Positions 22,313-59,755 of a DNA stretch of 64,000 nucleotides are shown here, in pieces. A program made the position numbers and the translations under genes. The stretch lies in contig JAHHII010000005.1 of NCBI GenBank assembly GCA_019358855.1, forward strand, positions 124,001-188,000, written 5' to 3'. Under the pieces are notes generated by a model. That model was given only the letters and a program-made list of their open reading frames with translations, did not search any database and was not told the origin of the DNA. The stretch's first letter is position 1. The number at the start of each line of letters is the position of its first letter. Source of the DNA: Timaviella obliquedivisa GSE-PSE-MK23-08B. GTDB taxonomy: Bacteria; Cyanobacteriota; Cyanobacteriia; Elainellales; Elainellaceae.

Positions 22313-22351
22313 TGATTGAATCAAAAGTAAAGATCGAATCAGGGAAGAGAA

Positions 22352-24013: not shown

Positions 24014-24048
24014 CTGCCTGCCCTATAAATAAAAATGATAAAAAAGTC

Positions 24049-25470: not shown

Positions 25471-28400
25471 ATCTGTCTCTCATCAACCCTTTCAAAACTA
25501 TGCAATTCTGGAAACGCAGCCTTATTGTTCAAATAGTCGGATACTTTTTAATTCTGTCTTTCGTAACAGTAAGCGCCATTTGCTGCGTTGCATTTCTCCA
25601 ATCTCGGGCAGCCCTTAAAACCTCAATTATCAAACAACTTTATTTAACCGCTAACCTCAAAGAAGATGAACTCAATCGCTGGGTGGCAGACCAAGGCGAA
25701 GAAGTCAGAACCTTGATAAAAACGCCAGAAGTTCAAGCCTTTGCACCTCTGCTAATCCAGAGTGATCGACAAAATGAGTCAACCGCACAAACAGAAGCCT
25801 ACCAGCGACTTTCAGGACTGTTAACGGCGATCGATAGCCAGCATTCTAGCCTTGACGAAATTCTGATTTTAACGAAAGGCAGCAAGGTAGTACTTTCTAC
25901 CAAGAAATCTAATGAAGGCTCCTACGAACCGCTAGTTCAATATAGCTATCTGCCTAAAACTCAGGAGTTTCAGTTTTCCCCCAACTTCTACCCCGCCCCT
26001 ACAACTGGCGAACCCCGCATGACATTTGCTACTCCCATTGAAGGTGCAACAGGTCAGCAAATAGGTATACTAGCCCTTCATCTTAATCTCAGCCGCATTG
26101 ATGAAATTTTGCGTAAACGTCCAGGATTAGGAAAAACAGGCGAAACTTATTTAGTGGGTAACACTCTACCTAACCAAGGCGGCAACTTAAAAAGCTATAA
26201 CATTTTCATTTCTAAAACTCCCTCTCACCAGCCTGCCGATCGCGATGTTTATAGCCAAGGGATTGCCCTAGCATCGCAGGGACTTGCGGGTAGCGGGGTT
26301 TATTGGAACTATCGCGGGGAAGAGGTGCTGGGGGTGTATCGCTGGTTAGAGAATCATGATCTAGCTCTGTTAGTCGAAATGACGACTCAGGAAGCCTTTG
26401 CGCCTGCGCGACAGCTTGCTCAAACCATTTTTACCACAGGATTAGGGTTGGTGGGTCTGTTGGCGATCGTTGTTTACTATGGCACCCAGCGGATTGCCCA
26501 CCCCATTTTAGCAATCACTCAAACCGCAACGCAGGTCGCAGCAGGGAATTTAGCCTCCACGGCTCCAGTGCTCACTGAGAATGAAATCGGTATTTTGGCA
26601 AGAGCATTCAATCAAATGATTGAACAGCTGCGAATGCTTTATACACAGCTAGAGATAAAGGTTGAAGAACGAACTGAAGAACTCAGACAATCTCGACAAT
26701 TTTTGGATAGCATTATCAATAGTTTACCGCTGGCACTATATGTTAAAGATGCAAGACAAAATTTTCGGTATGTCCTGGTGAGTCGAAACTCTGAACACAT
26801 TTTAGGATTTTCGCCAGAAACGGCGATCGGGCGTAATGATCAGGAGCTAATTTCTTCTGAACAGGCTGCTTACCATCTGCAAGAAGATATTGCTACTTTG
26901 CAGCACAGCGGTTTAGTAGAACTACCGGAACACTGGATTGAGCGAGAACCTGGACATCGGATTATGGTGAGAGGCTGGAAGCTACCTTTGTTTGATGCAC
27001 AAGGAAAACCTAGTCATATTTTGGGTATCTCTGAAGATGTGACCGATCGCAAACAGCAGGAACAAGCATTGCGTTTGTTTTTAGAAGGAACAGCGGCAAA
27101 AACAGGAGATGTTTTCTTTAATACTTGCGTATCTTATTTGGCTGAAATATTGCGGGTACGCTATGCGTTTGTCACTGAGTTTGTTGAGGATTCTGAGACT
27201 AGCGATCGCCACAGGGTTCACACCCTCGCATTTTGGCAAGGAGTTGCCCAAGGAGAAAACTTTGAGTACTCGATTCAAGACACACCTTGTGAGGCAGTGC
27301 TGAATGGAGAGCTATATTCTTGTCCTACCAATCTACTCACTTTATTTCCTCAACTACTGGATAAGATGGCGATCGCGGCTGTCAGCTATCTGGGTGTTCC
27401 TCTAACCCACTCATCAGGAAAAATCTTGGGACATCTAGCCGTTTTAGACGTAAAACCAATGGAGGAAGATCCGAGTCGAGAACTGATCTTGAAAATTTTC
27501 GCAGCCCGTACTGGGGCTGAGTTAGAGCGTAAGCAGGTAGAAGCCTCGCTGCTCTTAGCCAAAGATGCTGCTGAAGCGGCAAATCGTGCTAAGAGCGCTT
27601 TTTTGGCGAACATGAGTCACGAGCTACGAACGCCACTCAACACGATCTTGGGATTCTCTCAACTGATGGAAAGAGATGTCCTTCTGACCACTAGTCAGAA
27701 AGAGTTTTTAGCAACCATCAACCAAAGTGGAGAACACTTATTAAACTTAATTAATGACGTTTTAGAAATGTCTAAAATTGAGGCAGGTCGGATTGCCTTA
27801 AACCCAACGACGTTTGATCTGCGTTTCCTGCTCCATACGCTCAAGGAAATGTTTCAAGTTCGAGTTAAAGCTAAGAGTCTATCATTGGAGTTTAGATTAG
27901 CTAACAATTTGCCACACCATGTTTTAGCAGACGAGGGAAAACTTCGTCAGGTACTCATTAACTTATTAGAAAACGCAGTAAAATTTACCCAAATTGGACA
28001 TATTCAGGTGCAGGTGACCACGACCTCGCCACACCTTACGCCCAGCCTTCCTAAACTTCGCTTTGAAGTTCATGATACGGGTTGTGGCATTGCCGCTGAA
28101 GATCTAGGACAATTATTTCAACCCTTTTCGCAGCCGTTCACTAGCTCTCAAATGGGTCAGGGCACGGGGTTGGGGTTGGCAATTAGTCGTCAGTTTGTGC
28201 GTTTAATGGGGGGAGATATGGGGGTTATGAGTCAAGTCAATGAGGGCACAACCTTCTGGTTTGATATTCCTGCTGTGTCTGCAAGTCCGTTAGAAATATC
28301 ACCGATCTTGCCAGATAAACGAGTTTTACGAATTGCGCCCCATCAACCTAATTACCGGCTTTTGATAGTAGATGACCGACAAGAAAATCGGGAATTAATG

Positions 28401-29000
28401 GTGCGGTTATTAGACATGGTAGGCTTTGAAACGACTACAGCAGCGAATGGCGAAGAAGCGATCGCCCAGTGGCAAGCTTGGCAGCCCCACCTCATTTGGA
28501 TGGACATGCGAATGCCTGTCATGGATGGCTACGAGGCAGCCAGACGCATTCGCGCCCAAGATCATACTCACACGACAAAAATTATTGCTCTGACTGCCAG
28601 CGCCTTTGAAGAACAACAAGTGAGTATCTTGGCAGCAGGCTGCGATGATTTAGTCTGCAAACCCTATAAAGAATCCCTTATTTTTGAAAAAATCACCCAG
28701 CATTTAGGGACTCAATATCTCTACGCTGAACCTCTAATGAACTTGCTACAAAATTCTATTGCTCCGAAGGATCTGACTTCAGACCTGTTGAGTATGATGC
28801 CGATAGAATGGATGGCTCAGATGTATCAAGCGGCACTCCGAACCGATGAACAGATGATCTTTAAGCTGATTCAACAAATTCCATCTTCTAATCAAGCGAT
28901 CGCCGATGCCCTAATGGATCTGGTGCATAACTTTCGCTGTGACAAACTGATGGATTTAACCCAACCCTTCTTACCCACGAACTTTTCCAATGAACCGTAG
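25452..29000 (+). CDS. Membrane hybrid sensor histidine kinase (Cache-HAMP-PAS-GAF-HisKA-HATPase-REC)
   Basis: This protein has up to 1182 aa; a second ATG at 25500 (MQFWKRSLIVQIVGYF) gives a more usual N-terminus and may be the real start. Two membrane helices (about 20-45 and 325-348) enclose a ~280-residue periplasmic double-Cache-like domain. Then come HAMP (ILAITQTATQVAAGNLASTA), PAS (about 415-535), GAF (about 540-695), HisKA with His723 ([10 protein letters not shown]), HATPase (GTGLGLAIS) and a receiver with Asp974 and phosphoacceptor Asp1018 (MDMRMPVMDGY). A ~70-residue C-terminal module follows that is shared with the AAA-HisKA protein upstream. The binding lipoprotein and the response regulator overlap it on either side, marking one translational unit. 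Confidence 0.92.
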   Translation: MAKHLINLSLINPFKTMQFWKRSLIVQIVGYFLILSFVTVSAICCVAFLQSRAALKTSIIKQLYLTANLKEDELNRWVADQGEEVRTLIKTPEVQAFAPLLIQSDRQNESTAQTEAYQRLSGLLTAIDSQHSSLDEILILTKGSKVVLSTKKSNEGSYEPLVQYSYLPKTQEFQFSPNFYPAPTTGEPRMTFATPIEGATGQQIGILALHLNLSRIDEILRKRPGLGKTGETYLVGNTLPNQGGNLKSYNIFISKTPSHQPADRDVYSQGIALASQGLAGSGVYWNYRGEEVLGVYRWLENHDLALLVEMTTQEAFAPARQLAQTIFTTGLGLVGLLAIVVYYGTQRIAHPILAITQTATQVAAGNLASTAPVLTENEIGILARAFNQMIEQLRMLYTQLEIKVEERTEELRQSRQFLDSIINSLPLALYVKDARQNFRYVLVSRNSEHILGFSPETAIGRNDQELISSEQAAYHLQEDIATLQHSGLVELPEHWIEREPGHRIMVRGWKLPLFDAQGKPSHILGISEDVTDRKQQEQALRLFLEGTAAKTGDVFFNTCVSYLAEILRVRYAFVTEFVEDSETSDRHRVHTLAFWQGVAQGENFEYSIQDTPCEAVLNGELYSCPTNLLTLFPQLLDKMAIAAVSYLGVPLTHSSGKILGHLAVLDVKPMEEDPSRELILKIFAARTGAELERKQVEASLLLAKDAAEAANRAKSAFLANMSHELRTPLNTILGFSQLMERDVLLTTSQKEFLATINQSGEHLLNLINDVLEMSKIEAGRIALNPTTFDLRFLLHTLKEMFQVRVKAKSLSLEFRLANNLPHHVLADEGKLRQVLINLLENAVKFTQIGHIQVQVTTTSPHLTPSLPKLRFEVHDTGCGIAAEDLGQLFQPFSQPFTSSQMGQGTGLGLAISRQFVRLMGGDMGVMSQVNEGTTFWFDIPAVSASPLEISPILPDKRVLRIAPHQPNYRLLIVDDRQENRELMVRLLDMVGFETTTAANGEEAIAQWQAWQPHLIWMDMRMPVMDGYEAARRIRAQDHTHTTKIIALTASAFEEQQVSILAAGCDDLVCKPYKESLIFEKITQHLGTQYLYAEPLMNLLQNSIAPKDLTSDLLSMMPIEWMAQMYQAALRTDEQMIFKLIQQIPSSNQAIADALMDLVHNFRCDKLMDLTQPFLPTNFSNEP

Positions 29001-29541
29001 CCCAGCCCAACCCCATCGGGGTAATATTTTGCTTGTAGATGATACGCCCAATAACCTTCGTCTTCTATCGGCAATGTTGACCGAGCAGGGATATGAGGTG
29101 CGTCGAGTGGTGAATGGTCAAATGGCACTGAAAACAGCCCAAGCGAACCCACCAGATTTGATGCTTTTGGATATTAAAATGCCAGACATGAATGGTTACG
29201 AAGTCTGCCAACGCTTAAAGGCAGATGTAGAAACACGAGATATTCCGGTGATTTTTATCAGTGCTTTAGATGAGGTGCTGGATAAGATGAAAGCCTTTGC
29301 GGTAGGCGGAGTAGATTACATTACCAAACCTTTTAGCGAAGAAGAGGTGTTTGCACGAGTTGAAAATATTTTAACCATTCGTAAGTTGCAGCAGCAGCTT
29401 AAGCAACTTGAAGTGAGACAGGCAAAGAGTGAGGCAAACTATCAAAGCTTGTTTAAAATTTGGGGACTTTGTTTAGTACAAATGACGGATGGAGTTGAAG
29501 AAATGCGAATACAAGATGAATCAGATAGGAAGGCTCCATAG
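28990..29541 (+). CDS. Single-domain response regulator with C-terminal coiled coil
   Basis: This 183-aa protein has a complete receiver at about 12-128: acidic pair Asp17/18 (LLVDDTP), phosphoacceptor Asp61 (LLLDIKMPDMNGY) and Lys113 (ITKPF). It is followed by the linker ENILTIRKLQQQLKQLEVRQ. No DNA-binding, GGDEF or kinase output follows. The last 45 residues (ANYQSLFKIWGLCL) look like the very beginning of a PAS domain that then stops, so the protein may be a truncated remnant of a longer regulator, or a dedicated phosphate shuttle. It overlaps the kinase gene by 11 bp. Confidence 0.88.
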   Translation: MNRSPAQPHRGNILLVDDTPNNLRLLSAMLTEQGYEVRRVVNGQMALKTAQANPPDLMLLDIKMPDMNGYEVCQRLKADVETRDIPVIFISALDEVLDKMKAFAVGGVDYITKPFSEEEVFARVENILTIRKLQQQLKQLEVRQAKSEANYQSLFKIWGLCLVQMTDGVEEMRIQDESDRKAP

Positions 29542-29626: not shown

Positions 29627-31744
29627 TCACTCTCCTCGTTTAGTCCACTGCCAAATTTTAATTGTTTTATCTTGACTGGCACTCACTAAACGCTGATCTG
29701 CCGGACGGGCTGTTAGGGACAAGACGGTTGCTGTATGTGCCTCCTGAATTTCTTGAAACGCTTCAGACTGAGTGTCCCAAACTCGGATACTTTTGTCAAA
29801 GCTGCCGCTGGCAATGGTTTGGTCATTGACAAACGTTACTGTCGTGACTTTATCTTGATGCTCTGCAAAAGTGCGGAGAATTTTTCCGGTTTGTAGATCC
29901 CAAAGCTTGATGTTTTTTTCCCAACTGCCGCTGGCGACCTGTTTGCCGTTGGGACTAATGGCAACCGCACTGACTGCATTACGATGTCCAGCAGGTTGGC
30001 TGAGGGTGCGAATGAGTTCGCCAGTTTCGGTGTGCCAGAGTTTAACGGTGAAGTCTTGACTGCCGCTGGCGATCGTCTTGCCATCAAGACTCAGTGCTAC
30101 AGCGTAAACCTTATCGGTATGCTCGGTTAAAGTGTGGCGCAGCGCTGTAGTCGGCACATCCCAAATTTTAATTGTATTATCTTCACTGCCACTGATGACC
30201 GTTTTGCCATCTCGACTGATTGCCACAGAGGTAACAGGGGCGGTATGTCCTTTCAGCGTATGCAGCAGTTTTCCGGCGATCGCATCCCAAATTTTAATTG
30301 TATTATCTTCACTGCCGCTGGCAAGCAGGCTACCATCGGCGCTGAGGCTGAGGGCAAGGATGGGGGCGGTATGTCCATCGTTAAGGGTATTAGGCACTTC
30401 TGCGGTGGCAAAATCCCAAATTTTGATTGGGAAAAGTTGAGGATTAAACGGGTCACGATCTTCGCCAGCGCTAATTAAGGTACGCTGGTCGGGACTCAGA
30501 ATAGCAGCGCTAACTGCCTGAGCTTTTTGGGGATTTTCAGCAAGAGTTTTGAGGAGAGAAATTTGATGAGTACTGAGCGTGAATGGATTTTTGTTAGCAG
30601 AAGTAATGGCTGAGGGAACGACAGACGGAAAGAACCGAGGAACGCTGTATAGTGCGATCGCCCCCAGCAAGACTGCACCCCCAAGGTATATCCATGGGCG
30701 CAAGGTGGTTTTTGGCACTGTACCCTTGGTTTTAACGTTAGGTCTCACAATCGTTTCTGACTCCGCAGAAGCAGGCGGTAACCAGACGGGCATACCAGCA
30801 CTTACGGCTTGCAGGGCATTACTGAGTTCAGCAACTGAAGCAAAACGATCGCTCGGTCTTTTCTCTAAGCAGCGCATGACAATCGCTTCCAGGCTGAAGG
30901 GCAAGTCTTCGCTACCAGGCTGCGATCGCAAGGGTAGAGGGATTTTACTGGCATGGGCAGTCAGCCAGTTATCGTTACTGACTCGATTATTTTTGAAGTC
31001 AAACCCAAAGGGATCAACCCCAGACAGCATTTCGTATAGCATCATGCCAAGGCTATAAATATCTGCTCGTTCGTCAACTTCACTTGTCACGTTAAATTGT
31101 TCGGGCGGCGCGTAGTGACAGGTTCCTAAAAACATGCCTGTGGTGCTAGCATATTCGTTTTGCAAAAAATGAATTTTAGCGATTCCAAAGTCAATCACTT
31201 TCGCGAGTTCGCCCAGCGCTGTAGGCACTAAAAAGATGTTGGCGGGCTTTAAATCTCGGTGAACAATTTTGATTTGTTCACTCATTCCGGTCTTAGTATC
31301 CCAAAACGTTACTCCAGTATGGGCAAGACGCAACCCATCACAGACCTGACTCATGATATTACAGGTACGCGCGATCGGCAGACGTTGTTCAGATACCATT
31401 ACATCTCCCAAGGTTTGCCCTTGCAAATATTCCATGACGTAGAACGGGTATCCTTCGGAAGTTACGCCGTAGTCAGTCACTTGAACAATGTGGGGGCTTT
31501 TGAGAGCGGCACAAATGGAGCATTCCTTTTCAAAACGTTCTCGAAAATCGGTGTCGTTCGCGATCGCCAACGATTCTTTTAACAGCTTGAGGGCGACGGG
31601 CTTACCCAGGCGAGTATCCATTGCCAGAAAAACATTGCCCATACCGCCGCCGCCCAGCAGTTCATCTAAACGATAACGGTTACCGTCACCGACAAAGCGA
31701 CCGAGCCACATGGACGAGGGATTCGAGAAAGAATGCTGACTCAT
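29627..31744 (-). CDS. Ser/Thr protein kinase with C-terminal WD40 repeats
   Basis: This is a 705-aa Hanks-type kinase. The Gly-rich loop is GGGGMGNVF (31-39), the ATP lysine is Lys53 (ALKLL), the catalytic loop is HRDLKPANIF (162-171), DFG is at 185-187, and GTCHYAPPEQF forms the activation segment end. A single membrane helix lies at about 347-367 (IYLGGAVLLGAIALYSV), and the rest forms about six or seven WD40 blades (for example LSLSADGSLLASGSEDNTIK). The WD40 part would lie on the far side of the membrane from the kinase if this helix spans. It is last in a four-gene operon with an FHA-domain oxidoreductase, a plausible phospho-Thr partner. Confidence 0.92.
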   Translation of the reverse strand: MSQHSFSNPSSMWLGRFVGDGNRYRLDELLGGGGMGNVFLAMDTRLGKPVALKLLKESLAIANDTDFRERFEKECSICAALKSPHIVQVTDYGVTSEGYPFYVMEYLQGQTLGDVMVSEQRLPIARTCNIMSQVCDGLRLAHTGVTFWDTKTGMSEQIKIVHRDLKPANIFLVPTALGELAKVIDFGIAKIHFLQNEYASTTGMFLGTCHYAPPEQFNVTSEVDERADIYSLGMMLYEMLSGVDPFGFDFKNNRVSNDNWLTAHASKIPLPLRSQPGSEDLPFSLEAIVMRCLEKRPSDRFASVAELSNALQAVSAGMPVWLPPASAESETIVRPNVKTKGTVPKTTLRPWIYLGGAVLLGAIALYSVPRFFPSVVPSAITSANKNPFTLSTHQISLLKTLAENPQKAQAVSAAILSPDQRTLISAGEDRDPFNPQLFPIKIWDFATAEVPNTLNDGHTAPILALSLSADGSLLASGSEDNTIKIWDAIAGKLLHTLKGHTAPVTSVAISRDGKTVISGSEDNTIKIWDVPTTALRHTLTEHTDKVYAVALSLDGKTIASGSQDFTVKLWHTETGELIRTLSQPAGHRNAVSAVAISPNGKQVASGSWEKNIKLWDLQTGKILRTFAEHQDKVTTVTFVNDQTIASGSFDKSIRVWDTQSEAFQEIQEAHTATVLSLTARPADQRLVSASQDKTIKIWQWTKRGE

Positions 31745-31793
31745 AGCGATTACCTTGTCACCTATTTTGTTTTATTAGCAGCGATGCCGTCCC

Positions 31794-32981
31794 TTATTTC
31801 TTGACCGCCTTAGACCAAATGGCGATCGTGCCGTCTCGTCCTCCAGTAATCAGCGTGTTGCCATCTTGGCTAAATGCAACAGATAAAACCCAATCCGGAT
31901 AGCCAGATAAGGTTGCTAACGGAACTTGCTGTTCTAAATTCCACAGCCGTACCGTATTGTCGATCGCTCCACTGGCTAAAATCTTACCATCTGGGCTAAT
32001 CGCCACAGAAACTAGTCGATCTTTATGTCCTGTAAAAGAGTGCAACTCTTGCCCCGTTGCCACATCCCACAGCCGGACAGTACTATCCCAGCCCCCGCTG
32101 GCAATGCGCGTCCCCGTCGGATCAAACGCGAGCGCCCTGACCGCGTTAGTATGTCCAATGAATGTTTTTAGCTCTTTGCCAGTCTGCACATCCCAGAGTT
32201 TAATCACTTTATCCTTACCGCCACTGGCAACAGTTTTTCCATCAGGACTAAACGCTACGGGGAAAATCCGATCTCTGTGCCCTGCCAAAGATTGGGTGAG
32301 TGTGCCCGTTTTTAAGTCCCAAAGTCTCAGCGTATTATCGCCGCCGCCACTAGCTAATAATTGCCCGTCTGGAGAAAAAGCGACTGACCACAGCACGCCT
32401 TTATGTCCCTCTAGAGTTTGCAGTAATTCCCCGCTTTGTAAATTCCAAAGCTTAATAGATTTATCAGCGCTGCCCGTTGCTAAAACTTGGCTATCGGGGC
32501 TTAGGGCGATCGCATGGATCACATCTTTATGACCTTTCAACGTATGCACAATTTCTTGAGTTCGCAAATCCCAGACAATCACGGCATTACCGCTGACTGT
32601 GGCTAATAAGTGACCATCTGAAGCAGGAGCAACCCACCAAGTTGCGCCTAAACGTCCAAACAAAGTATTGAGCTTTGCCTGTTCCCAGCCTGCCCCTGCG
32701 GAGCAGCGAGGTAGAGCAATTTTGGCATTGAAGGGTTGATTCGGGTCAGGATTTTGAACTGCAATGTTGAGTTCGCAGGGCTGAGAATTTGCTGCTGTGC
32801 CCATTGGTAATTGTAAATTTTGTCCGCTTAAAACTTTAGGGAGCATCACAAATGATGTTGCTGCTGCTGCCAGACCCAGGGCTGCGTAGCCAAAGACTGC
32901 CAGTTGGCGATTTGTTGCTTTTGTGACTGCGATCGTTTCATTCTCTGAGGCGCGGGTTTGCTCTTCGTCATGGTTTGCCAT
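31794..32981 (-). CDS. Membrane-anchored seven-bladed WD40 protein
   Basis: This 395-aa protein has one membrane helix at about 28-46 (FGYAALGLAAAATSFVML). A ~60-residue linker with Cys residues (QPCELNI, PRCSAGAG) follows, then seven WD40 repeats, one full propeller, with repeated HKDxxxxVAxSPDGxxLASG and IKLWD words. The last six blades are very regular. AAGGAG precedes the ATG. It lies between the FHA-reductase (68 bp upstream) and the kinase (49 bp downstream). Inference: an extracytoplasmic interaction platform matching the WD40 half of the kinase. No enzymatic residues are seen. Confidence 0.88.
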   Translation of the reverse strand: MANHDEEQTRASENETIAVTKATNRQLAVFGYAALGLAAAATSFVMLPKVLSGQNLQLPMGTAANSQPCELNIAVQNPDPNQPFNAKIALPRCSAGAGWEQAKLNTLFGRLGATWWVAPASDGHLLATVSGNAVIVWDLRTQEIVHTLKGHKDVIHAIALSPDSQVLATGSADKSIKLWNLQSGELLQTLEGHKGVLWSVAFSPDGQLLASGGGDNTLRLWDLKTGTLTQSLAGHRDRIFPVAFSPDGKTVASGGKDKVIKLWDVQTGKELKTFIGHTNAVRALAFDPTGTRIASGGWDSTVRLWDVATGQELHSFTGHKDRLVSVAISPDGKILASGAIDNTVRLWNLEQQVPLATLSGYPDWVLSVAFSQDGNTLITGGRDGTIAIWSKAVKK

Positions 32982-33049
32982 GATTTGCTCCTTGGGAAAG
33001 GTCAGGTGATTGCTTTGATCTTTAGTACAGGTAAATTGGCGTTTTGGAT

Positions 33050-34507
33050 TTAAGCTTCAATAACCACTCGTCCGACTGGACAAGCCACACAGGTCAACAC
33101 GTACCCTGCTGCCTGATCTTCGGGTTCAAGGGCATCCGGTTCGCTGTCATATTTCACTTCGCCTTCTAACTTGCGTTTTTTGCAAGCTCCACACACGCCT
33201 TGCCGACAGTTACTCCGAATTTTCACCCCTTCCTGCTCTGCGAGTTCTAAGATAGATTCTGAGCCATCACCCAAAATTTCTTTGTTCGATTTTGCAAAAA
33301 CGACGAGCGGCTGAGAGGAATGTCCGTTTGAGGCAACAGGAATTGCTTCAGGGATTGCTGCTTTGACTACGACAGGTTTTTTGGGTGCGCCAAAACTTTC
33401 TTCGTAATAGTTCTGCATCGGAAAATTTAACCCCGCCATCAGATCTTTTGTGGCTTGCATGAAACCATTGGGACCACACACATAAACGGTGCGCTCCTGA
33501 AAGTCTGGGGCAATGCTCTGCAAAACTGAGGCTGTTAGCCTTCCCGTTAAGCCGTACCAAGGTTGACCTAGGGGCGATCGCGTGGTGGAAATGACCAGGT
33601 TAAAATTGGGTAAGCGGGCTGACATCATTTCTAATTCTTGGCGGAAAATGATGTCTTGGGGCGATCGGGCACAGTGGTAAAAAATAATGTCAGTCGGAAT
33701 CACCAAATCTGCAATCCAGCGAGACATAGACATCATCGGTGTAATTCCACTTCCCGCCGAAATCAGCAGTAGTTTAGCTGGCGGCGTAGGAGCACAGGTA
33801 AACTTGCCTAACGGCTCGCTCAGCTTAATGGCATCACCCACTTTGAGATGATCATGCAACCAGTTAGAGACTAGTCCAGCGGGTGCCTGCGGCATATCAG
33901 GCGAGGGAAGAACTCGCTTGACGGTAATTTCTAATGTCTGGGAACGGGAGGGAGATGATGAAATGGAATAGGAACGCAGAACAGATTCTCCATTGATATC
34001 GAGATCTAAAGTGACAAACTGACCGGGTTTATGGCTAAACCGAACGGGTAAATCTGCCATAAAGGTAAAAGTTTTGACATCTGCGGTTTCATCGGTAATG
34101 CGAACACACCGAACAGTCAGATCGCCTTGAACCCATTCATTTCCTCCCGTCTGCTTTATTAACACCGAAGTTTCACTGCTAGATGTTAAGACTTCAATAG
34201 CTTCAATGAACAATACAAAATCTGCAATCCGCAGCAGGTCGCTGACCTTAAGTGAGTAACTTTGATTGGCTTTAACGTCCTGACTATTCAGCGAGGAACC
34301 GTTGGCGCTGCCCAAATCTGTGAAGGCATAGGCACCTTTTTGTCCCTGAATTTTTGCATGACTCCGGCTCACATCAGGACTTTCTAAAATTACATCACAG
34401 TCGGCGGTACGTCCAATTAAGCATTCTTGTGTAGGTTTGTTCTCGGGGGCAAGGCTAATTTCTTGAAACCCGCCAGTTTGGTAATTGAAAACTTTAATTT
34501 TGAGCAT
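33050..34507 (-). CDS. FHA domain-ferredoxin reductase-[2Fe-2S] ferredoxin fusion
   Basis: This 485-aa protein has three parts. Residues 1-105 are an FHA phosphothreonine-binding domain: IGR at 31-33, SRSHA near 47-51, and LGSANGSS at 65-72. Residues about 125-375 are an FAD/NAD(P) reductase with RSYSISS (flavin) and LLLISAGSGITPMM plus VCGPNGFM (nucleotide). Residues about 400-485 are a plant-type ferredoxin with Cys434, Cys439, Cys442 and Cys473. The reductase-ferredoxin order resembles Hcr-type NADH oxidoreductases and phenol hydroxylase reductases. The FHA domain at the front is unusual and suggests phosphorylation-dependent docking, most simply to the Ser/Thr kinase encoded downstream. 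It probably passes electrons to the Fe-S membrane protein encoded just upstream. Confidence 0.9.
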   Translation of the reverse strand: MLKIKVFNYQTGGFQEISLAPENKPTQECLIGRTADCDVILESPDVSRSHAKIQGQKGAYAFTDLGSANGSSLNSQDVKANQSYSLKVSDLLRIADFVLFIEAIEVLTSSSETSVLIKQTGGNEWVQGDLTVRCVRITDETADVKTFTFMADLPVRFSHKPGQFVTLDLDINGESVLRSYSISSSPSRSQTLEITVKRVLPSPDMPQAPAGLVSNWLHDHLKVGDAIKLSEPLGKFTCAPTPPAKLLLISAGSGITPMMSMSRWIADLVIPTDIIFYHCARSPQDIIFRQELEMMSARLPNFNLVISTTRSPLGQPWYGLTGRLTASVLQSIAPDFQERTVYVCGPNGFMQATKDLMAGLNFPMQNYYEESFGAPKKPVVVKAAIPEAIPVASNGHSSQPLVVFAKSNKEILGDGSESILELAEQEGVKIRSNCRQGVCGACKKRKLEGEVKYDSEPDALEPEDQAAGYVLTCVACPVGRVVIEA

Positions 34508-34530
34508 GAGGGAATAAATAGGTTGAGGGA

Positions 34531-36204
34531 TTAGTCGTTCTTTTGTCGAGGGCGAACTATGGTTGTATTGGCAGATCCATCTGGGTCGCTATCTGCCTTG
34601 CTAAAGCTCCACATGACCGTGGGTGAGTTAGCTTGATCGGGCGGTTTGGCTGGAAAGATCTGGGGCTCTTCAATCTGAAGTTTTTCGAGAAGATGGGTAT
34701 GGGCTTCGTCTGTAATGCCTAGATTTTGACGGAGTGCTTGAAATAGATGAAGGCTGTTGGCGGGTAAGACACTGCGTTTTTCTATGGATTCTCGCAATGC
34801 GCCCAGATAGACTTGCTGACGATACTCTTGGGTAAAACTGGGTAAGACTTTTGCCAGGGTATAGAGTTCGTCTGGCTTGAGATCTTCAAGCGATCGCCCT
34901 TCTAAAAACTGTGATAAATCTATTTCCAATTTGCCTAACTGTCGGCGCAGTAAGTTCGCATCCCGTTCGCGGGTGTAGCGCTGTGCGCTTCGCTTCCAGG
35001 TTTTAACTAACCACAAACTGCTCAAAACAATCGCTGCCCAACTGATTAAGTTTTGAACGACTATCGGAAAGTAACCTAACGTGGGTTGAATGCCCATGAA
35101 GAACAAGAGGTTGAACGCAAGAAATGTAGCGATCGCAAACGCCTGGCTCTGCACCAGATCTGCACTTAGGGGACGACGTAACCGCTTGTTGTACCGCTTA
35201 TAAGTTTTCTCTGCCCATAGCCCGATCGCATAGGTGGCACCGGAAAAAAGAGTCAGCGTGAGGGGAACTGCAATGAGTTTGGGAATGGCGATCGCCTGTC
35301 CTGCAATAAAGAATCCGGGAGCCAAGAGCGTTGAAAGCTGACTCGTTTCATTCCACATCCCAGCCTTTAGAAAACTCCAATTACCAGAATATAAGCCGAA
35401 GTACGTATAGAACCCAATTACTAAGCCAACATAGGCATAATAAAGCAGCTTGCGATCGGGCTGACGGATATTTTCCCAATGGGCGCCTTCTGCATCAATA
35501 TCAATACAGCCTACTTTACAAGCAACGCAAGCACTTTTCTCCTGTCCCTCTTTCCCAACCGTGCGACACATTGATTGGGTAATGGTTTTGGGTGGGGCGG
35601 TATGGGCTTTGCTGCCAAATAATCCGCTAGGTTCACTGTAAACCATCTGTACCGGAGCCATCGGGCAAAAATAATTACACCAGGTTTTACCAGCAAAGAG
35701 AAAACCAATGGTAATGGCAGCAAGAATGGTTAGGGACAGAAAAATACCTAACAGAAGGCGATCGGAGTTTGCTAGCAAAAGACGTAGATTTAAGCCTAAG
35801 AATAGTAAGGAAAATTGAACGGTTAACGCATTGCGAGCTAACCAGGAATCTTCATCAATAATAGACTGCCGCTGTACTCCTAGCGATCGCGGAATTTGAG
35901 ATAGAAAAGACAGTGGGCAAATCCGTCGCCATGCCTCATGACCAAACACTAATAGGGTAACGATGACCAGCGGTAAAACCATTCCCCAAAAAATTCTTGC
36001 ACCCATGGGGTAAGGGGATAAGGGCAGACATTGTCCTTGAAATAATGCACAGTTATTGGGGGCATTGGTTGCAAATAGCTGCCCTGGTGCAGTCCATTGA
36101 GCCGAGATGGGATCGTAAAACAGAGAGACAATCAATAGTATCCACCCTAGGGTAAATCCCCAGCGAGTGAGATGCATCGTCCGTTCGGAAATTTTTGAAA
36201 ACAT
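34531..36204 (-). CDS. Polytopic Fe-S membrane protein (NapH/NosR-like)
   Basis: This 557-aa membrane protein has at least six hydrophobic helices (about 14-31, 70-88, 128-147, 153-173, 255-275, 290-330 and 355-395). Cysteine motifs are Cys96-Pro, Cys176-x3-Cys180-Pro (WCNYFCPM) as in NapH/NosR/RdxA-type proteins, and Cys213 with Cys226-x2-Cys229-x3-Cys233 (SACVACKVGC), enough for one or two [4Fe-4S] clusters. An N-terminal loop carries Cys52 and Cys59. The ~150-residue C-terminus is soluble and helical with no cluster motif. GAGGAG precedes the ATG. First gene of the operon, 23 bp before the FHA-reductase. Inference: transmembrane electron transfer fed by that reductase; the acceptor is unknown. 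Confidence 0.8.
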   Translation of the reverse strand: MFSKISERTMHLTRWGFTLGWILLIVSLFYDPISAQWTAPGQLFATNAPNNCALFQGQCLPLSPYPMGARIFWGMVLPLVIVTLLVFGHEAWRRICPLSFLSQIPRSLGVQRQSIIDEDSWLARNALTVQFSLLFLGLNLRLLLANSDRLLLGIFLSLTILAAITIGFLFAGKTWCNYFCPMAPVQMVYSEPSGLFGSKAHTAPPKTITQSMCRTVGKEGQEKSACVACKVGCIDIDAEGAHWENIRQPDRKLLYYAYVGLVIGFYTYFGLYSGNWSFLKAGMWNETSQLSTLLAPGFFIAGQAIAIPKLIAVPLTLTLFSGATYAIGLWAEKTYKRYNKRLRRPLSADLVQSQAFAIATFLAFNLLFFMGIQPTLGYFPIVVQNLISWAAIVLSSLWLVKTWKRSAQRYTRERDANLLRRQLGKLEIDLSQFLEGRSLEDLKPDELYTLAKVLPSFTQEYRQQVYLGALRESIEKRSVLPANSLHLFQALRQNLGITDEAHTHLLEKLQIEEPQIFPAKPPDQANSPTVMWSFSKADSDPDGSANTTIVRPRQKND

Positions 36205-37812: not shown

Positions 37813-40800
37813 TCAGTCATCTTCCTCAAAGGCACCGAGAGACTTTAGTGCCGCTTTTTGTGCCTCTGTGAGTCCGGTAACACCTGTAATATTTAAGCCC
37901 TCATAGGGGCGATCGGCACGCCAGGTTTGCAAACAATTTCCGGTGGGTAAGTCCCAAAGTTTAATCGTTTCATCGGCGCTACCGCTGACTAGCGTTTGTC
38001 CATCAGGGCTAAAGCTGATGGACTCCACCCCTTTTCCGTGCCCTTGCAAGGTTTGCAAACAGGTTCCGGTCGGCAAATCCCAAAGTTTAATGGTCATATC
38101 AGTGCTGCCACTGGCAAGCCAAACTCCATCAGGGCTAAAGGCAAGAGTTTGAACCCAACCGGTATGTCCTGTTAACACCTGTAAGCATTCACCTGTGAAC
38201 GCATTCCAGAGACGAATGGTTTGGTCATCGCTGCCGCTTGCGATTAAATTTTGTGATGACTCTTTACCCAATTTTTTACCAGTTAAGTATGCAACAGTGA
38301 GAACAAAGCGATCGTGCCCTGATAACACCCGCAGGCATTCGCCCGTTGAAGTTTCCCAAAGGCGAACTGTCTGATCTTCGCTGCCCGTGATCAGCTGCTG
38401 TCCGTCGGGACTGAAGGCGATTCCGTACACCCGCTGATGGTGTCCTTGCAGCGTTCGTAGTCGAGAGACGGAGGATGACGATCGCTGCTCACTCAATTTC
38501 TCACCCAGCGGCTGAGGGTAGAGGGATGTGACATCCCAAAGTTTGACCGTATTATCATTGCTGTTAGTGGCTAAGAGATTTCCTTGAGGACTAAACAAGA
38601 CCCGACGTACTTGTCCCGATCGCTCTTGTAATACCTTTAAACAGCGCCCCGTATTAACGTTCCAAAGGCGAATGGTTTGATCATCGCCACCGCTTGCCAT
38701 TAACTGCCCAACCGGACTAAATGCCACTGACCAAGCTCGCCCTTCATGCCCAATCATTTCTTGGCAAGCAATGGACTGAGAACGGGTCTGAGTAGAGGCG
38801 ATCGCTTGAGATAAGATCGCTTGAGATGAAATTGCCTGTGGCACCTGCCATAGGCGCACAATGCCATCTTCGCTAGCACTGGCAATTTGATTACCTGCTG
38901 GGCTGAATGCCACTGACCAAACCAGATTTTTATAGCCTTGAAAAGTTTTAATACAGCGTCCAGTTTCAATGTCCCAAAGCTTAATGGTCTGATCATCGCT
39001 GCCGCTCGCTAACATGCGTCCATCGGGGCTAAATGCCACTGACCAGACTTTGCTCGTGTGTCCTGGGTATGTACTAAGACATTCTCCCGTTAATGGATGC
39101 CAAAGGCGGATTAACTGATCATCGCCTGCCGTGGCTAAGCAGTAGCTGGAGGACGTTTCAGATGAGGATTCCATAGGGTGAAATGCCACCGACCAAAGGC
39201 GGCGATCGCCCTCAAAACTTTGGATCAAAGCTCCCGTACCGCCGTCCCAAATCCGTACCTTGCCATCATCACCACTACTCGCTAGCAGGGCACCATCGGG
39301 GCTAAATGCCAGGGTACGAATTCGCTGTTGATGTCCTTCCAAAATCGCAGAGCAATCACCGTTCTCCAAATCCCAAAACCGTACTGTTTGATCTTCTCCT
39401 CCTGTTGCCAACAGAGGTAAATGGGGATGAAAAGCGATCGCGCAGACTCCTCCTTGGTGACCCGTTAACACCTGCAAGCAATCCCCTGTTTCTGCATCCC
39501 ATAACCGAACAGTGCGGTCTTCGCTGACACTGCCCACCACGTTACCTAAGGGACTAAACGCCACCGCCCAAACCCAGTTGCTATGCCCCCGAAAGTCCTG
39601 ATAACATTGACCACTGCTCACGTCCCAAGCGCGAATCACCCGGTCTTCGCCACTGCTGATAAACGTTTGGCTATTAGGACTAAAAGCGATAGACTTGACC
39701 CAGGCAGTATGTTCACGCCCTACGAAAACTTGTGTTCCATCCTGAGTTCGCCAAAGATGAATTTCACCATCTCCATCGCTAGTTGCAAACCATTCTCCAC
39801 TTGGGCTAAATGCCACTGCTAAAATATTACCTAAGGTTTGAGCAAACACCGATCGCGATAAATCTGCTGCTGTAACATTGACATGTTTAAGCTTGGTATC
39901 TTGAAGATAAGCTTGCCAAAGAGACAGCCTAGAAAAATCATAGCCCGTCAAATCTATTCCCAGTTGTCGAAAGAGATTAAGTAAGTTTCCTCCAGCATAG
40001 CCAGGAGTATTCTCTATCTCAATCTGGATCGCTGTTAATCGCTCCGTTAATTTCTGTTGTGTTGCAGCCCCTCGCCATTCTGTCTTTAGTCTTTCTAGCA
40101 GAGGTTCTACAATCATACGTATCTGTTGACTGCGGATGTAATCCTTGGTCGTTGCCTTTAAAAGAGCATGGGACTGAAATAATCCGTGTAGTTCCGATGT
40201 TCTTAACTCCTGCTCAACCTGTTCAATCAACCGATCCGTCACATATTCCATGACGACAGGTTGCTGGGTATAGGTATCAATGTTCCTCTCAGTTAACGAT
40301 CGCCGTCTCAACGAACTCATTGCATCCATCAGCTTAGCTTTAGGAATTGCTGTTACCAGATCAGCTTGTAAGTCAGTAAAGGCAAGGGGTTCACGGGCGA
40401 TCGCCAGCCAATACATAATGTCCTGCTCTAATTTAGAAAGGCGATCAAACTGTTGTTGCAATAAAGTCCGAATATCATCAAAAATGATCGTCCCTTGTGC
40501 CAGAAACTCGGTGATGTTGCCCTCAAATAATTCTTGAATAGTGGTAGCAACAATTTTAAGGGCTAGAGGATTACCTCCATAGTGATCACTCAAGGCTTGC
40601 CAATCGACCGATGTGCCTACAAAGTGCCCTTTAGTTTGCAGAATCGCTTTGCTATCGTTTCCAGTCAAGCCGCTTAACCGGAGCGATCGCACAGGTAAAT
40701 TTTCTCCTTCCAAAACCGTTAATTCTTTTGGGTTCTCGCGGCTCGTTAAAACGAGGCAGCTTTGATGAGGAGTTTGAGCAATCCGTCTAAACAATTCACG

Positions 40801-42245: not shown

Positions 42246-43592
42246 TTAAGCTAGAGCAAAATCTGCCGCTGTAAAGTTTGCCTGTTGCGCTGCCGCATTA
42301 AGGTTCGTCAGGTTCGCCTGAACGCTGAAGGCACCCCCATCGCTTAAGTCTTGCGAAAAAACGGCTCGACTAATACCTAAAGTGCTGTTGAAGTAGACAA
42401 ATATACCCTTGTCCGCCTTGATATTATTATTGGCGGCGATCGCTTGCGCAGCCGCACCCGCAGCCGCAAACTGACCTTCCAGAATTAACAAGTTACCATC
42501 CTGTAAGTTGCCAACCTGCCCTTTTTGGAAATTAAACTGGTTAATTCCAAACTGCTGTTTGCTAAACACGAGTTGATCAGTGCTGAACTCAAAGTCAGTA
42601 ACCACATCCGGTTGATTGAGGTTTTGCCCTGGATTACCGCCTGAGAATGGATCAACTAAGAATTGGAATTTATCTTGACCTGCTCCACCGGTTAAGGTAT
42701 CGCCTAATGTACTTGTGGGTGACACCACAATTTTGCCTGTGCCGCCCGTCAGAATATCATTACCTTCGCCACCATTAACCACAACTCGGGTATTGCTGGC
42801 TCTAGCATCTAGAACGTCGTTGCCTGCACCTCCATCAAACTGAATAACCTCTACTCCTGTCCCCATTAAATCATTCACTACAAATGTATCGTTGCCACCC
42901 TCACCGCTGACATCAAACACTTCAGCCGTATCTACAACAAGGTTAAATTGACCAATAGCTTGTCCATCTAATCCAACTCGCTCAAAAAAAGTTTTCCCAG
43001 TAGAGTTCTTACCCAAAACAAAGTTATCTCCTCGAGCAGGCGAACCATTTATCTCAATTGTATCCCGACCTTCATTCCCACTCATGACATCATTGCCTTC
43101 ACCCTCATTCCAAACGAGTGTGTCGTCTCCTAAGCCTCCAATCATGCGATCGTTGCCTGTTCCTCCAATCACAAAGTCGTTTCCATCTCCACCATCAAGA
43201 TAATCATTTCCAGATCCACCACTAACGTTATCATCGCCTGCTTCACCGTAAATTTTATCTCTACCCGAACCTCCATTTAAAGTGTCGTCGCCAGCACCCC
43301 CATAAATTTTGTCATTGCCAGCACCCCCAGAGATATCATCATCCCCTATGCCGCCCGAAAGTTTATCGGCACCAGCACCGCCTACAATCGTATCGCCGCC
43401 GCTGCCACCATCAATGATGTCATTACCTTTGCCGCCATCTGCTTCATCATTGCCCGCACCACAATCAATTTTATCGTTACCCGCACCTGCAATGCAGACA
43501 TCATCACCAGCACCTGCTGAAAAGGTGTCGTTGCCCGGCGTACCATTCCAGATATCCGCAGCTTTTGTGCCTTTGTTTTTTACAGTAGCCAT
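42246..43592 (-). CDS. RTX (hemolysin-type) calcium-binding protein
   Basis: This 448-aa protein is rich in Gly/Asp nonapeptides. An unbroken block at about 18-175 (for example GGAGADKLSGGIGDDDISGG) has about 15 repeats and should form Ca-binding parallel beta-rolls. A second short block lies near 255-300. The C-terminus (DFEFSTDQLVFSKQQFG and an Ala-rich end) matches the usual region with the type I secretion signal. There is no N-terminal signal peptide. Its own exporter is not adjacent; the C39/HlyD pair 2 kb away uses a different leader type. GGAG precedes the ATG, and a strong inverted repeat lies upstream. Confidence 0.88.
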   Translation of the reverse strand: MATVKNKGTKAADIWNGTPGNDTFSAGAGDDVCIAGAGNDKIDCGAGNDEADGGKGNDIIDGGSGGDTIVGGAGADKLSGGIGDDDISGGAGNDKIYGGAGDDTLNGGSGRDKIYGEAGDDNVSGGSGNDYLDGGDGNDFVIGGTGNDRMIGGLGDDTLVWNEGEGNDVMSGNEGRDTIEINGSPARGDNFVLGKNSTGKTFFERVGLDGQAIGQFNLVVDTAEVFDVSGEGGNDTFVVNDLMGTGVEVIQFDGGAGNDVLDARASNTRVVVNGGEGNDILTGGTGKIVVSPTSTLGDTLTGGAGQDKFQFLVDPFSGGNPGQNLNQPDVVTDFEFSTDQLVFSKQQFGINQFNFQKGQVGNLQDGNLLILEGQFAAAGAAAQAIAANNNIKADKGIFVYFNSTLGISRAVFSQDLSDGGAFSVQANLTNLNAAAQQANFTAADFALA

Positions 43593-45799: not shown

Positions 45800-47989
45800 A
45801 TGCGTTATCCAACTATCTTGCAACATAGCGAAGAAGACTGCGGTGCTGCCTGCATTGCAACCGTTGCCAAGTACTACGGACGAACCTTTGCCATCGCTCG
45901 GATTCGCGAAGCAGTAGGAACCGTGTCGCACGGTACAACGCTGCTAGGTTTGAGTCGGGGTGCAGAACTTCTAGGGTTTAACGTTCGCCATGTCAAAGCA
46001 ACACCGCAAATGATCGATCGACTCCATGAAATTCCCTTGCCTGCTGTGATTCACTGGAAGGGATGTCACTGGGTTGTGCTATACGGAAAACGCGGCAACA
46101 AATATATTGTGTCCGATCCTAGCATTGGCATCCGGCATCTGACTCGGCAGGAGCTACTCATTGGATGGAATAATGGAATTATGCTGCTGCTACTGCCAGA
46201 CGAAAGCCGCTTTGAGCAACAGCCAGAAGATCAGGTGGGTGGCTTTGGTCGATTTTTGCAGCGAGTGTTGCCCTATCGCTGGATTTTAGTTCAAGCGATC
46301 GTTCTGAATGTGGCGATCGGGCTGCTGTCGCTGGCTTCACCGTTAATGATGCAGCTTCTGACCGATGATGTGTTAGTGCGAGGAGATACGCAATTATTAG
46401 GCGTAGTGGCGATCGGTGTGATTGTGATGACATTAGTGAGGAGTGCGATCGGGTTAATTCAGTCGCATCTAATTGGTTATTTTAGTCAACGCTTGCAGTT
46501 TGGCTTGATTTTAGAATATGGACGTAAGCTCCTCCACTTGCCCCTGACTTATTTTGAAGGACGACGCAGCGGTGAAGTGGTTAGCCGAATTTCTGATGTC
46601 GATGAAATTCATGCCTTAGTCTCACAAATTGCCTTAGGGTTACCCAGCCAATTCTTTATCGCAGTCGTTTCTCTAGGATTCATGCTGTTCTACAGCGGAA
46701 TTTTAACGTTAGCTTCACTGGTCGTCTTTGTGTTCGTAACATTGGTTAATTTGCTATTTCTGCCAATGCTGCGCCAGAAAACCCGTAGTCTGATTATGCT
46801 AGGAACCGAGAACCAGGGTTTTTTGGTAGAAACTTTTCGAGGGATGCAGATCCTCAAAACGAGCCACGCGACACCGCAGGCTTGGCAGGAATATCAAACC
46901 AATTTTGGTCGTCTCGCCAACCTTGGCTGGGGCATGATGAAACTGGAGCTATATAGCGGCACGATTACCGACATTCTCTCAACATTTGCGAGTATATTGC
47001 TGCTGTGGTTTGGTAGTTACTTGGTTATTAATCATACCTTGAGTATTGGTCAGCTTCTGGCTTATAACGGCTTGAGCGGCAACTTCTTCGGATTTTTAGC
47101 CTCGGCAGTTGGCTTAGCCAATGAATTCATCACGGCTCAGATCGTGATCCAGCGTCTTAATGAAGTCATTGATGCCACACCCGAAGATGAGCAGGATGCT
47201 AAAAAGCCTTGGGCAGAAATCCCAGTAGATGCAAATATTCTTTGTTCTGATCTAAGCTTTCATCATTCTGGACGAGTCGAGCTACTGAATCAGTTCTCGC
47301 TCAAAATTCCGGGTGGACAAACAACGGCGTTAATCGGCAAGTCTGGCTGTGGTAAAAGCACGTTAGTTAAACTGTTGTCAGGATTATATTCCCTTGATTC
47401 AGGAAACATTCGCTATGGCATTTACAATCAGCAAGATTTATCGTTAGATTGTCTGCGGCAACAGGTGGTATTGGTACCTCAAGAACCGCATTTCTGGAGC
47501 CGATCGATCATTGATAATTTCCGCTTTAGCGATCCACACGTTACGTTTGAGCAAATTGTTAAAGCCTGTGAAATTGTGGGAGCAGACGAGTTTATCAGCC
47601 AGTTACCTGATAAATATCAAACTGTACTCGGAGAATTTGGTGCAAACCTTTCTGGCGGGCAGCGGCAACGATTGGCGATCGCCAGAGCCATTCTCCCTAA
47701 TCCACCTGTGCTAATCATGGATGAATCCACTGGCGCACTCGATCCAGCTAGCGAAACAGAAGTGTTAGACCGAATTTTGTCGCATCGCCAAGGTAAAACA
47801 ACGATTCTAATTAGCCATCGTCCTAACGTAATTCAACGAGCCGATTGGATTGTCATGCTCGATCGCGGACAGATAAGCATTCAAGGAACTCCAACAGAAT
47901 TATCTCAACAACCTGGCGTTCACCTCAAGTTTTTCAACCCTGTTACAGCGTCAGTGAATGGCTTTGCCCTCAAGACTGCTCATTCTTAA
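45800..47989 (+). CDS. Peptidase C39 domain ABC transporter (PCAT)
   Basis: This 729-aa exporter has an N-terminal C39 peptidase (about 1-135) with Cys14 in EEDCGAACIA, His90 in KGCHWVV and Asp106 in VSDPS, the full catalytic triad. The transmembrane domain (about 155-450) has some six helices, and the ABC domain has Walker A IGKSGCGKST, signature LSGGQRQRLAIARA and Walker B PVLIMDEST. It should cleave double-glycine leaders and export the cargo. The precursor gene with a matching leader lies upstream and an HlyD adaptor follows within 20 bp. No outer-membrane TolC gene is in the window. No good ribosome site is visible before the ATG. Confidence 0.93.
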   Translation: MRYPTILQHSEEDCGAACIATVAKYYGRTFAIARIREAVGTVSHGTTLLGLSRGAELLGFNVRHVKATPQMIDRLHEIPLPAVIHWKGCHWVVLYGKRGNKYIVSDPSIGIRHLTRQELLIGWNNGIMLLLLPDESRFEQQPEDQVGGFGRFLQRVLPYRWILVQAIVLNVAIGLLSLASPLMMQLLTDDVLVRGDTQLLGVVAIGVIVMTLVRSAIGLIQSHLIGYFSQRLQFGLILEYGRKLLHLPLTYFEGRRSGEVVSRISDVDEIHALVSQIALGLPSQFFIAVVSLGFMLFYSGILTLASLVVFVFVTLVNLLFLPMLRQKTRSLIMLGTENQGFLVETFRGMQILKTSHATPQAWQEYQTNFGRLANLGWGMMKLELYSGTITDILSTFASILLLWFGSYLVINHTLSIGQLLAYNGLSGNFFGFLASAVGLANEFITAQIVIQRLNEVIDATPEDEQDAKKPWAEIPVDANILCSDLSFHHSGRVELLNQFSLKIPGGQTTALIGKSGCGKSTLVKLLSGLYSLDSGNIRYGIYNQQDLSLDCLRQQVVLVPQEPHFWSRSIIDNFRFSDPHVTFEQIVKACEIVGADEFISQLPDKYQTVLGEFGANLSGGQRQRLAIARAILPNPPVLIMDESTGALDPASETEVLDRILSHRQGKTTILISHRPNVIQRADWIVMLDRGQISIQGTPTELSQQPGVHLKFFNPVTASVNGFALKTAHS

Positions 47990-48005
47990 CTTTAATGGAG
48001 ATTTC

Positions 48006-49355
48006 ATGCTTAATAACTCTGAATCAGGGGATTTACCTTTGTTACAAACCCAAGATTTTTTGCCACCGCTGGCTGCTTGGGTAAAGTTTGGTGGACTATT
48101 TATTCTAGGCACGATCGGAGTTGCAGTGGCGATCGCTTCTGTTGCACAATACCGAGTTACCGTCAAAGCACCCGCTATCATTCGTCCGACGGGTGAACTA
48201 AGTCTTGTGCAAGCCGCAACCGCAGGAACTGTAGTGCAAGTGCAAGTTCGCGAAAACCAGACCGTGCAGCAAGGTGAAGTCATTGCCAGAATTGACAACT
48301 CGCAGCTGCAAACGAAAAAAGCGCAGCTTCAAAATAGTATTGGGCAGGCAAGACTCCAACTTTTGCAGATACAGGCGCAAGTCCGTGCGATAGACAGCCA
48401 AATGACCGCAGAAACCGATCGCCGTGAGCACGCTATCGCCTCTTCTCAAGCTGAACATAGCCAACGGCTACGAGAGTATCAAGACCAGCAGATCATTTCT
48501 AGCGCTGAAGTGACACAAGCAAAAGCCTCTCTGCAAGCCACTTCTGCTGCATCCACCGCAGTTCAAGTAAAATTACAGCGCTATCGTCCTCTTGCTGCGG
48601 TAGGAGCACTCGATCGCGATCGGTTAGAAGAAGCAGAGCTAGCGGCGCAGCAGCAGGCGCAAGAAGTCGTGGCAGCAGAATCCAAGCTGCGACAGGCTGA
48701 GGCAATGCTCAATCCGACTTCAGCCGAGGTGATAGCGGCGACCGAGAAAGTTGCTCAAGAGCACGCCATGGGTGAGGCAACCCTAGCAGCTTTAACCAAA
48801 GAACAACAAGCGCTAACTCAGCAAAAAATTCAAATTGAAAATCAGCTAGAGCTAGATCGGCAAGAACTGAACCAAGTCCATCATGATCTCAGCAAAGCCA
48901 CCATTACTGCCACTACTAATGGCACGATCGCTAAATTAACCTTGCGCAACGCTGGGCAGACAATGCAACCCGGCGAGGAAATCGCCCAAATTGTTCCTAG
49001 TAATGCACGATTAGTCATTAAAGCCCTGGTAGCCGCCCAAGACATTAGTAAAATCATTATCGGTCAAACTGCTCAACTTCGTATTTCTGCCTGCCCTTAT
49101 CCCGACTATGGTACGTTATCGGGCGTTGTTAAATCAGTTTCCCCTGATGCGATCGCGCCGCCCAAAGCTTCAGAGGGCGCTGTGTCTTCACCCTATTATG
49201 AAGTTACCCTAGAACCGGAATATTTGATGTTAAGCCAGGGCGATCGCCGTTGCCAGATTCAAGTAGGTATGGAGGGTAAAATCGATATCGTTTCTAGAGA
49301 AGATACTGTGTTGCGATCGATATTGAGGAAAGTGCGATTAATTTCAGATTTGTAG
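48006..49355 (+). CDS. HlyD family periplasmic adaptor
   Basis: This adaptor has 449 aa. The start MLNNSESGDLPLL follows GGAG; a longer frame that overlaps the exporter lacks a site. A single membrane helix (about 28-48, FILGTIGVAVAIASVAQYRV) is followed by a lipoyl-like half motif (ELSLVQAATAGTVVQVQVRE). Next comes a long coiled coil (about 95-290, very rich in Gln/Ala/Glu) and the second lipoyl half and beta-barrel (ATTNGTIAKLTLRNAGQTMQ). It bridges the inner-membrane exporter to a TolC-type channel. Operonic with the PCAT gene, 16 bp apart. Confidence 0.93.
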   Translation: MLNNSESGDLPLLQTQDFLPPLAAWVKFGGLFILGTIGVAVAIASVAQYRVTVKAPAIIRPTGELSLVQAATAGTVVQVQVRENQTVQQGEVIARIDNSQLQTKKAQLQNSIGQARLQLLQIQAQVRAIDSQMTAETDRREHAIASSQAEHSQRLREYQDQQIISSAEVTQAKASLQATSAASTAVQVKLQRYRPLAAVGALDRDRLEEAELAAQQQAQEVVAAESKLRQAEAMLNPTSAEVIAATEKVAQEHAMGEATLAALTKEQQALTQQKIQIENQLELDRQELNQVHHDLSKATITATTNGTIAKLTLRNAGQTMQPGEEIAQIVPSNARLVIKALVAAQDISKIIIGQTAQLRISACPYPDYGTLSGVVKSVSPDAIAPPKASEGAVSSPYYEVTLEPEYLMLSQGDRRCQIQVGMEGKIDIVSREDTVLRSILRKVRLISDL

Positions 49356-50618: not shown

Positions 50619-50822
50619 GCTGGTATTTCCTGCCTTTGGGCTTGAGCTAGAGGACTTTGAGAATTGAGCAGAATCTTGAATACTTTTTGAGTACAAAGTT
50701 TCGATTGAGGTGAGTCCATCAGGTGAAATATGTTATGCAAATATAGCGAGAGCCATACGGGAAACTCATCGTCCTTTAGATAGTTAATGTAGAAAACTCT
50801 CTAAGGTTAGAACAAGAGTATC

Positions 50823-59749: not shown

Positions 59750-59755
59750 TGTCAC

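Follow-up and report, generated by a model that had tools for sequence, protein, structure and literature searches.

What purpose would be served by placing an FHA domain, a reader of phosphothreonine, at the head of a complete NAD(P)H-to-[2Fe-2S] electron chain, and encoding it together with a Ser/Thr kinase and a polytopic membrane protein? The question is raised by four closely packed minus-strand genes (intergenic gaps of 23, 68 and 49 nt) in a 64,000-nucleotide stretch of DNA from the cyanobacterium Timaviella obliquedivisa GSE-PSE-MK23-08B, hereafter the window. They encode FeS, a 557-amino-acid membrane protein (34531..36204); FFF, the fusion of FHA (residues 30-94), FAD (136-236), NAD(P) (248-354) and [2Fe-2S] ferredoxin (409-477) domains (33050..34507); WDTM, a WD40 protein with one transmembrane (TM) helix (31794..32981); and KINWD, a Ser/Thr kinase with WD40 repeats (29627..31744). 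Coordinates and Pfam domains, which in FFF are FHA, FAD_binding_6, NAD_binding_1 and Fer2, confirmed the four-gene set described in a first-pass annotation of this DNA. The answer that we propose, and to which we give an even chance of being correct, is that the kinase may control the docking of the NAD(P)H reductase FFF on the membrane protein FeS.

The pairing of FeS with FFF is observed directly. A contig scan, in which E-values are relative to the candidates, returned 63 loci with FFF relatives, of which about 35 are from cyanobacteria; in relatives from elsewhere the alignment starts only at about residue 100, and the FHA fusion is therefore seen only in cyanobacteria here. Among 292 sampled cyanobacterial genomes, 36 carry FeS and 9 carry FFF (threshold E<=1e-60), and FeS is present in every one of these 9. 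The two genes are adjacent and co-oriented in 25 of the 25 tabulated loci, adjacency is found again in L115, L116, L117, L133 and two Leptolyngbya boryana loci, and the protein distances of FeS and FFF correlate (r=0.88, uncorrected for shared phylogeny). The genome of the window holds a second, divergent FeS-FFF pair, on contig C16, which groups in the tree with loci of Leptolyngbyaceae and Oculatella, in a clade other than that of the first pair. FeS and FFF do not stand side by side in Crocosphaera-type loci or, as far as the contigs reach, in L031 and L037; L017 lies at a contig edge and gives no information on FeS linkage.

FFF of the window keeps the FHA residues GR, SRSH and NG, together with the FAD motif RSYS and the CX4CX2C...C set. 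In orthologues, where the first-pass annotation asked whether they are preserved, the phosphopeptide-binding Arg, Ser and His are retained, the Asn being variable, in all but one clade, the six-member Crocosphaera-type group in which the pair is unlinked. In that group (L033, L035, L036, L038, L120 and L124) FFF lies away from FeS and the FHA Arg and Ser are replaced, so that the phosphate site has been lost naturally. A general rule, by which unlinked FFF would always lose its FHA residues, was considered and dropped, as L031 and L037 retain them.

A candidate ligand for this FHA domain lies at the C-terminus of FeS, where the helical domain that follows the membrane part gives way to a tail predicted to be disordered (residues 520-557, 34531..34647, minus strand, pLDDT below 50) and carrying the Thr motifs T529-VMW (34620-34609) and T548-IVRP (34563-34549). 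Short FeS tails range from 34 to 117 residues and are unalignable over their length, yet all 17 contain T-[VIL]-hydrophobic triplets. The motif T-[VIL]-[VIYAMWL]-[RK] was observed 28 times in these 17 tails against 0.47 expected from shuffles, and is found in 13 of 16 FeS C-termini against 3 of 115 C-termini of other ORFs at the same loci; it was defined post hoc and the tails are related, so these figures overstate the significance of a contrast that is still large. Similar tail repeats occur in L. boryana and in genome G091, with weak individual statistics. E-(T/P)-T-like motifs also lie directly before the TM helix in WDTM N-tails (in the window, E15-T16-IAV ahead of TM 29-47), and the window kinase has ETIVRP ahead of its own TM helix (T331-IVRP, TM 350-368). 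A genome-wide DNA pattern search for T-x-V-R-P, which covered CGN Arg codons only and did not recover the kinase copy, indicated that the exact pentapeptide is not in general use. The FHA ligands of OdhI, GarA and DgcB have a Glu before the Thr and hydrophobic residues after it (PMC6733907), and by its sequence the FeS tail is a plausible FHA docking site. The tail motifs lend support to the recruitment by phosphorylation suggested in the first-pass annotation, in which the Thr residues would be phosphorylated and then bound.

The kinase KINWD has an intact Hanks-type Gly loop (GGGGMGNV), VALK for VAxK, HRDLKPAN for HRDxKxxN, and DFG. Its kinase domain (24-302) is followed by the single TM helix and by WD40 repeats (405-700), and these should therefore lie outside the cytosol, where the propeller may sense something; the WDTM propeller is probably outside too. 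The first-pass annotation saw the two WD40 propellers as anchors at the membrane; on the predicted topology they are more likely extracytoplasmic, and perhaps sensor, domains. In L012 (403-2736) and L015 (377-2722), a longer WD40 protein stands in place of WDTM, and its N-terminus resembles a caspase on visual inspection.

In the main, kinases accompany the fusion in other genomes, a point on which the first-pass annotation had made its reading depend. Within about 8 kb of the pair, a kinase is found in four clades with different architectures, compared with 23 kinase domains in 4.9 Mb of genome; these counts, like those for RTX genes below, come from loci of unequal length and carry no formal phylogenetic correction. 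In loci of the window's clade, KINWD and WDTM homologues recur beside the pair; in a second clade (L027-L030, L136 and L137), a divergent kinase-WD40 protein is encoded directly upstream of FeS; a CHASE2-kinase is near the pair in Rhizonema/Scytonema loci; and the nearby kinase of Pleurocapsa and Waterburya loci is without WD40. In L. boryana, two loci on different plasmids each present a CHRD protein, a kinase, FeS and FFF in one run.

The conserved FHA residues, the motifs of the tails and the linkage to kinases are most simply accounted for by a kinase-controlled docking of FFF on FeS, which we regard as moderately supported. The gene set, its co-occurrence, the intact catalytic and FHA residues and the enrichment of the motif are observed. 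The scheme built on them would run as follows. A receptor-type kinase, KINWD, with its propeller predicted outside and its kinase domain inside, would phosphorylate Thr residues within T-[VIL]-hydrophobic-[RK] motifs, both in the FeS tail and in the cytosolic tails that WDTM and KINWD itself possess. Through its FHA domain, FFF would bind the phosphothreonine, and its NAD(P)H-FAD-[2Fe-2S] chain would thereby be set beside the cytosolic Cys residues of FeS, the presumed Fe-S ligands, and FeS could then accept the electrons of FFF. Here phosphorylation, FHA-tail binding, cluster content, and electron transfer with its direction are what we infer, and topology and tail disorder are model predictions.

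Besides the post hoc definition of the motif, several observations weigh against this scheme. The exact TIVRP of the kinase is common only to near relatives. FeS proteins that have an FHA domain of their own hardly show the motif or lack it, despite an adjacent FFF (L021-L024, L116 and L117); without a comparable tail, docking must differ there. The FHA residues of L031 and L037 are intact though no FeS was seen beside FFF. At the cut-off used, 27 of the 36 FeS genomes are without FFF, and FeS can therefore work otherwise. No nearby kinase was seen in the stretch covered at the paralogous C16 locus, L044, L115, L116, L117 and L133. As regards the passage of electrons across the membrane, the likely Fe-S ligand Cys of FeS are predicted to be cytosolic, and on the outside no Cys is conserved except the invariant pair C52/C59. 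That electrons would cross the membrane, and what would accept them, is thus a weaker proposition than docking.

For FeS, the AlphaFold model (pTM 0.72 for the whole protein and 0.84 for its membrane part) and the positive-inside charge distribution agree on eight helices with both ends inside. Nine Cys (C52, C59, C96, C176, C180, C213, C226, C229 and C233) are invariant in an alignment of 39 homologues; C52 and C59 are predicted in an outside hairpin and the other seven in cytosolic loops, the segment C213-C233 being modelled with low confidence. Fer4_5 (PF12801) scores 21.6 bits on the window protein, against a curated cut-off of 22, and is matched by 24 of 24 aligned homologues at E<=0.01 (best 1.7e-07). 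The first-pass annotation had described a polytopic protein with [4Fe-4S] motifs: the protein is indeed polytopic, and in place of classical ferredoxin-type 4Fe-4S motifs it has one CX3CP (C176NYFC180P), a CX12CX2CX3C set from C213, and C96, whose C96P has the invariant Trp92 at the position of the first Cys. Many homologues have extra domains such as a cNMP-binding one, which is also present in L021 and L044. No phmmer match to PDB sequences was obtained, and Foldseek found nothing at E<=0.001 with either the full model or its TM part, for which the best VIA-align Z scores were 5.5 and 3.5; this absence does not show that the fold is new. Weak profile matches link the helical C-terminal part to helical stretches in viral surface proteins and were judged to be due to chance.

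The cytosolic position of the presumed ligands would also suit a role in redox sensing without net export, in which FFF would report the NAD(P)H state to FeS and thereby alter kinase activity or secretion. Kinase, FHA and cNMP-binding domains are all signalling parts, as this explanation would have it. However, a sensor needs less than a complete NAD(P)H-to-ferredoxin chain, and the nine invariant Cys, two of them outside, are in keeping with redox work across the membrane, even though the outside pair may have a structural role; we consider sensing rather unlikely, while taking it seriously.

Membrane proteins of the NapH, NosR and RdhC (PceC) type offer another comparison, since they and FeS are polytopic with a Fer4_5-type CX3CP loop and would share a role in membrane electron transfer. 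By analogy with NapH, whose membrane segments are proposed to react with quinol (PMC5928378), FeS might pass the electrons of FFF to plastoquinone, which would leave docking unchanged and alter the acceptor. The Fer4_5 similarity and the single CX3CP motif are in keeping with such a quinone entry. NapH, NosR and RdhC, however, have two CX3CP motifs where FeS has one (176-181) plus the lone C96P, and no CX2CX2CX3C match corresponding to the two C-terminal ferredoxin-type 4Fe-4S motifs of NapH and NosR was found in FeS, only C213-X12-C-X2-C-X3-C. Similarity to E. coli NapH extends over just 32 columns, at 14% probability. FeS also has no match to the covalent FMN motif of NosR and RdhC, [ST]G[AS]TX[ST] (as defined in PMC5928378), and differs from all three by its eight predicted TM helices, its invariant outside Cys pair and its FHA-FNR-ferredoxin partner. 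We therefore hold quinone entry to be improbable.

The other parts are of known kinds as well. FFF shares its FAD-NAD(P)-[2Fe-2S] order, RxYS and four Cys with FNR-ferredoxin reductases of the GbcB (glycine betaine monooxygenase reductase) and PaaE type, and scores 351.2 bits to the GbcB equivalog NF058606 (NCBIfam), whose cut-off is 500; it differs by its N-terminal FHA domain and by a gene partner that is a membrane Fe-S protein and not an oxygenase. The FHA regulators OdhI and GarA work with PknG/PknB kinases. In these proteins and DgcB, FHA reads a (phospho)Thr that lies in a disordered tail with Glu and hydrophobic residues around it, as the candidate ligand here would have it; unlike them, FFF has its FHA fused to a redox chain, and its candidate ligand is on a separate membrane-bound protein. 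A limited search of the open-access literature found no paper on a module of kinase, FHA-reductase and Fe-S protein, which is not proof of absence. The combination of FHA reader, FNR-ferredoxin reductase, Hanks kinase and CX3CP membrane protein, and the candidate docking code, appear new, and we view the module as a kinase-FHA effector module with a redox output.

A link to secretion, not seen in the first-pass annotation, comes from the neighbourhood and is among the least certain parts of this account. In seven loci, genes of one RTX family separate WDTM from FeS. The window's RTX protein (42246..43592, minus strand; nonapeptide repeats at 141 bits against a Pfam cut-off of 23) is 51-66% identical to the RTX proteins at that position in L011, L013, L019 and L020, and is a probable displaced member of the module. 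Beyond it lies a type I secretion pair, a peptidase-C39 ABC exporter with an HlyD adaptor (45800..49355, plus strand), possibly the RTX exporter. ABC/HlyD pairs are also near FeS-FFF in L009, L018 and L136; contig C16 has an ABC exporter and HlyD before FeS, and DUF2808 and an RTX/CHRD protein after FFF; on L. boryana plasmid pLBX, CHRD, kinase, FeS and FFF are followed by opposite-strand HlyD, ABC and PPIase genes; and a Cu/Zn-SOD-type protein follows FFF in Rhizonema/Scytonema. The module shares nonapeptide repeats, ABC exporter and HlyD adaptor with RTX/type I secretion systems by neighbourhood only, and we know of no RTX system that includes a kinase and an FHA-reductase. FeS and FFF could be a true pair amid kinase and secretion genes that are merely common, as the 23 kinase domains and the RTX repeats in dozens of ORFs of this genome might suggest. 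With RTX genes so common, it is family-specific adjacency that counts, and the recurrence of one RTX family at one position, of several kinase architectures, and of the L. boryana run on two different plasmids makes such a chance neighbourhood very unlikely.

If secretion is involved, the propeller kinase might switch on, through phosphothreonine, an NAD(P)H-driven electron flow via FeS to RTX/CHRD or Cu/Zn-SOD-type surface proteins, some of them type I-exported, which would use or receive electrons, for example in metal reduction or redox defence. We think this reading doubtful. Departure of electrons from the cytosol, to the outside Cys pair, quinone, metal or oxygen, and joint action of type I-exported RTX/CHRD proteins with the module are also the least certain elements of the main scheme. 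Profile comparison of CHRD with Cu/Zn-SOD gave no relation at the depth used, and any parallel therefore rests on what is stated in PMC5776111. According to the same paper, RTX-type genes of Trichodesmium, said to include CHRD domains, show a response to iron and dust, which is a lead and no test.

Other genes were noted around these loci. In L010, L012, L015 and L018, a sigma-70 region 4 protein is encoded upstream of FeS-FFF and a DUF1822 protein downstream, all on one strand, a DUF1822 protein being also beside FFF in L136; a small Mo-nitro_C (PF06967) protein lies near the RTX or WD40 gene in L012 (2887-3156), L010, L014 and L015. Between the window's RTX gene and redox operon, a stretch absent from other loci encodes a large WD40 protein with an N-terminal region that is NTPase-like by eye (37813-41586, minus strand). 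Two nonribosomal peptide synthetase genes (50823-59755, minus strand; TubC_N docking, condensation, AMP-binding, methyltransferase, carrier and thioesterase domains) stand beside an EcsC-like gene (49599-50696) and an HlyD gene (60456-61862). A single protein has three DUF3574 stretches (18912-20120, minus strand), and plus-strand genes at 20885-29541, for AAA_35 proteins (one with HisKA) and then a hybrid histidine kinase and response regulator, resemble one signalling operon.

The module is found in a minority of cyanobacteria, and FeS represents an unannotated membrane protein family with nine invariant Cys, present in 36 of 292 sampled cyanobacterial genomes. Its tail is a concrete, testable candidate FHA ligand, for which L. 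boryana is a possible test organism. If the proposal is true, the module would illustrate how a Ser/Thr kinase can determine the site at which a redox chain connects to the membrane.

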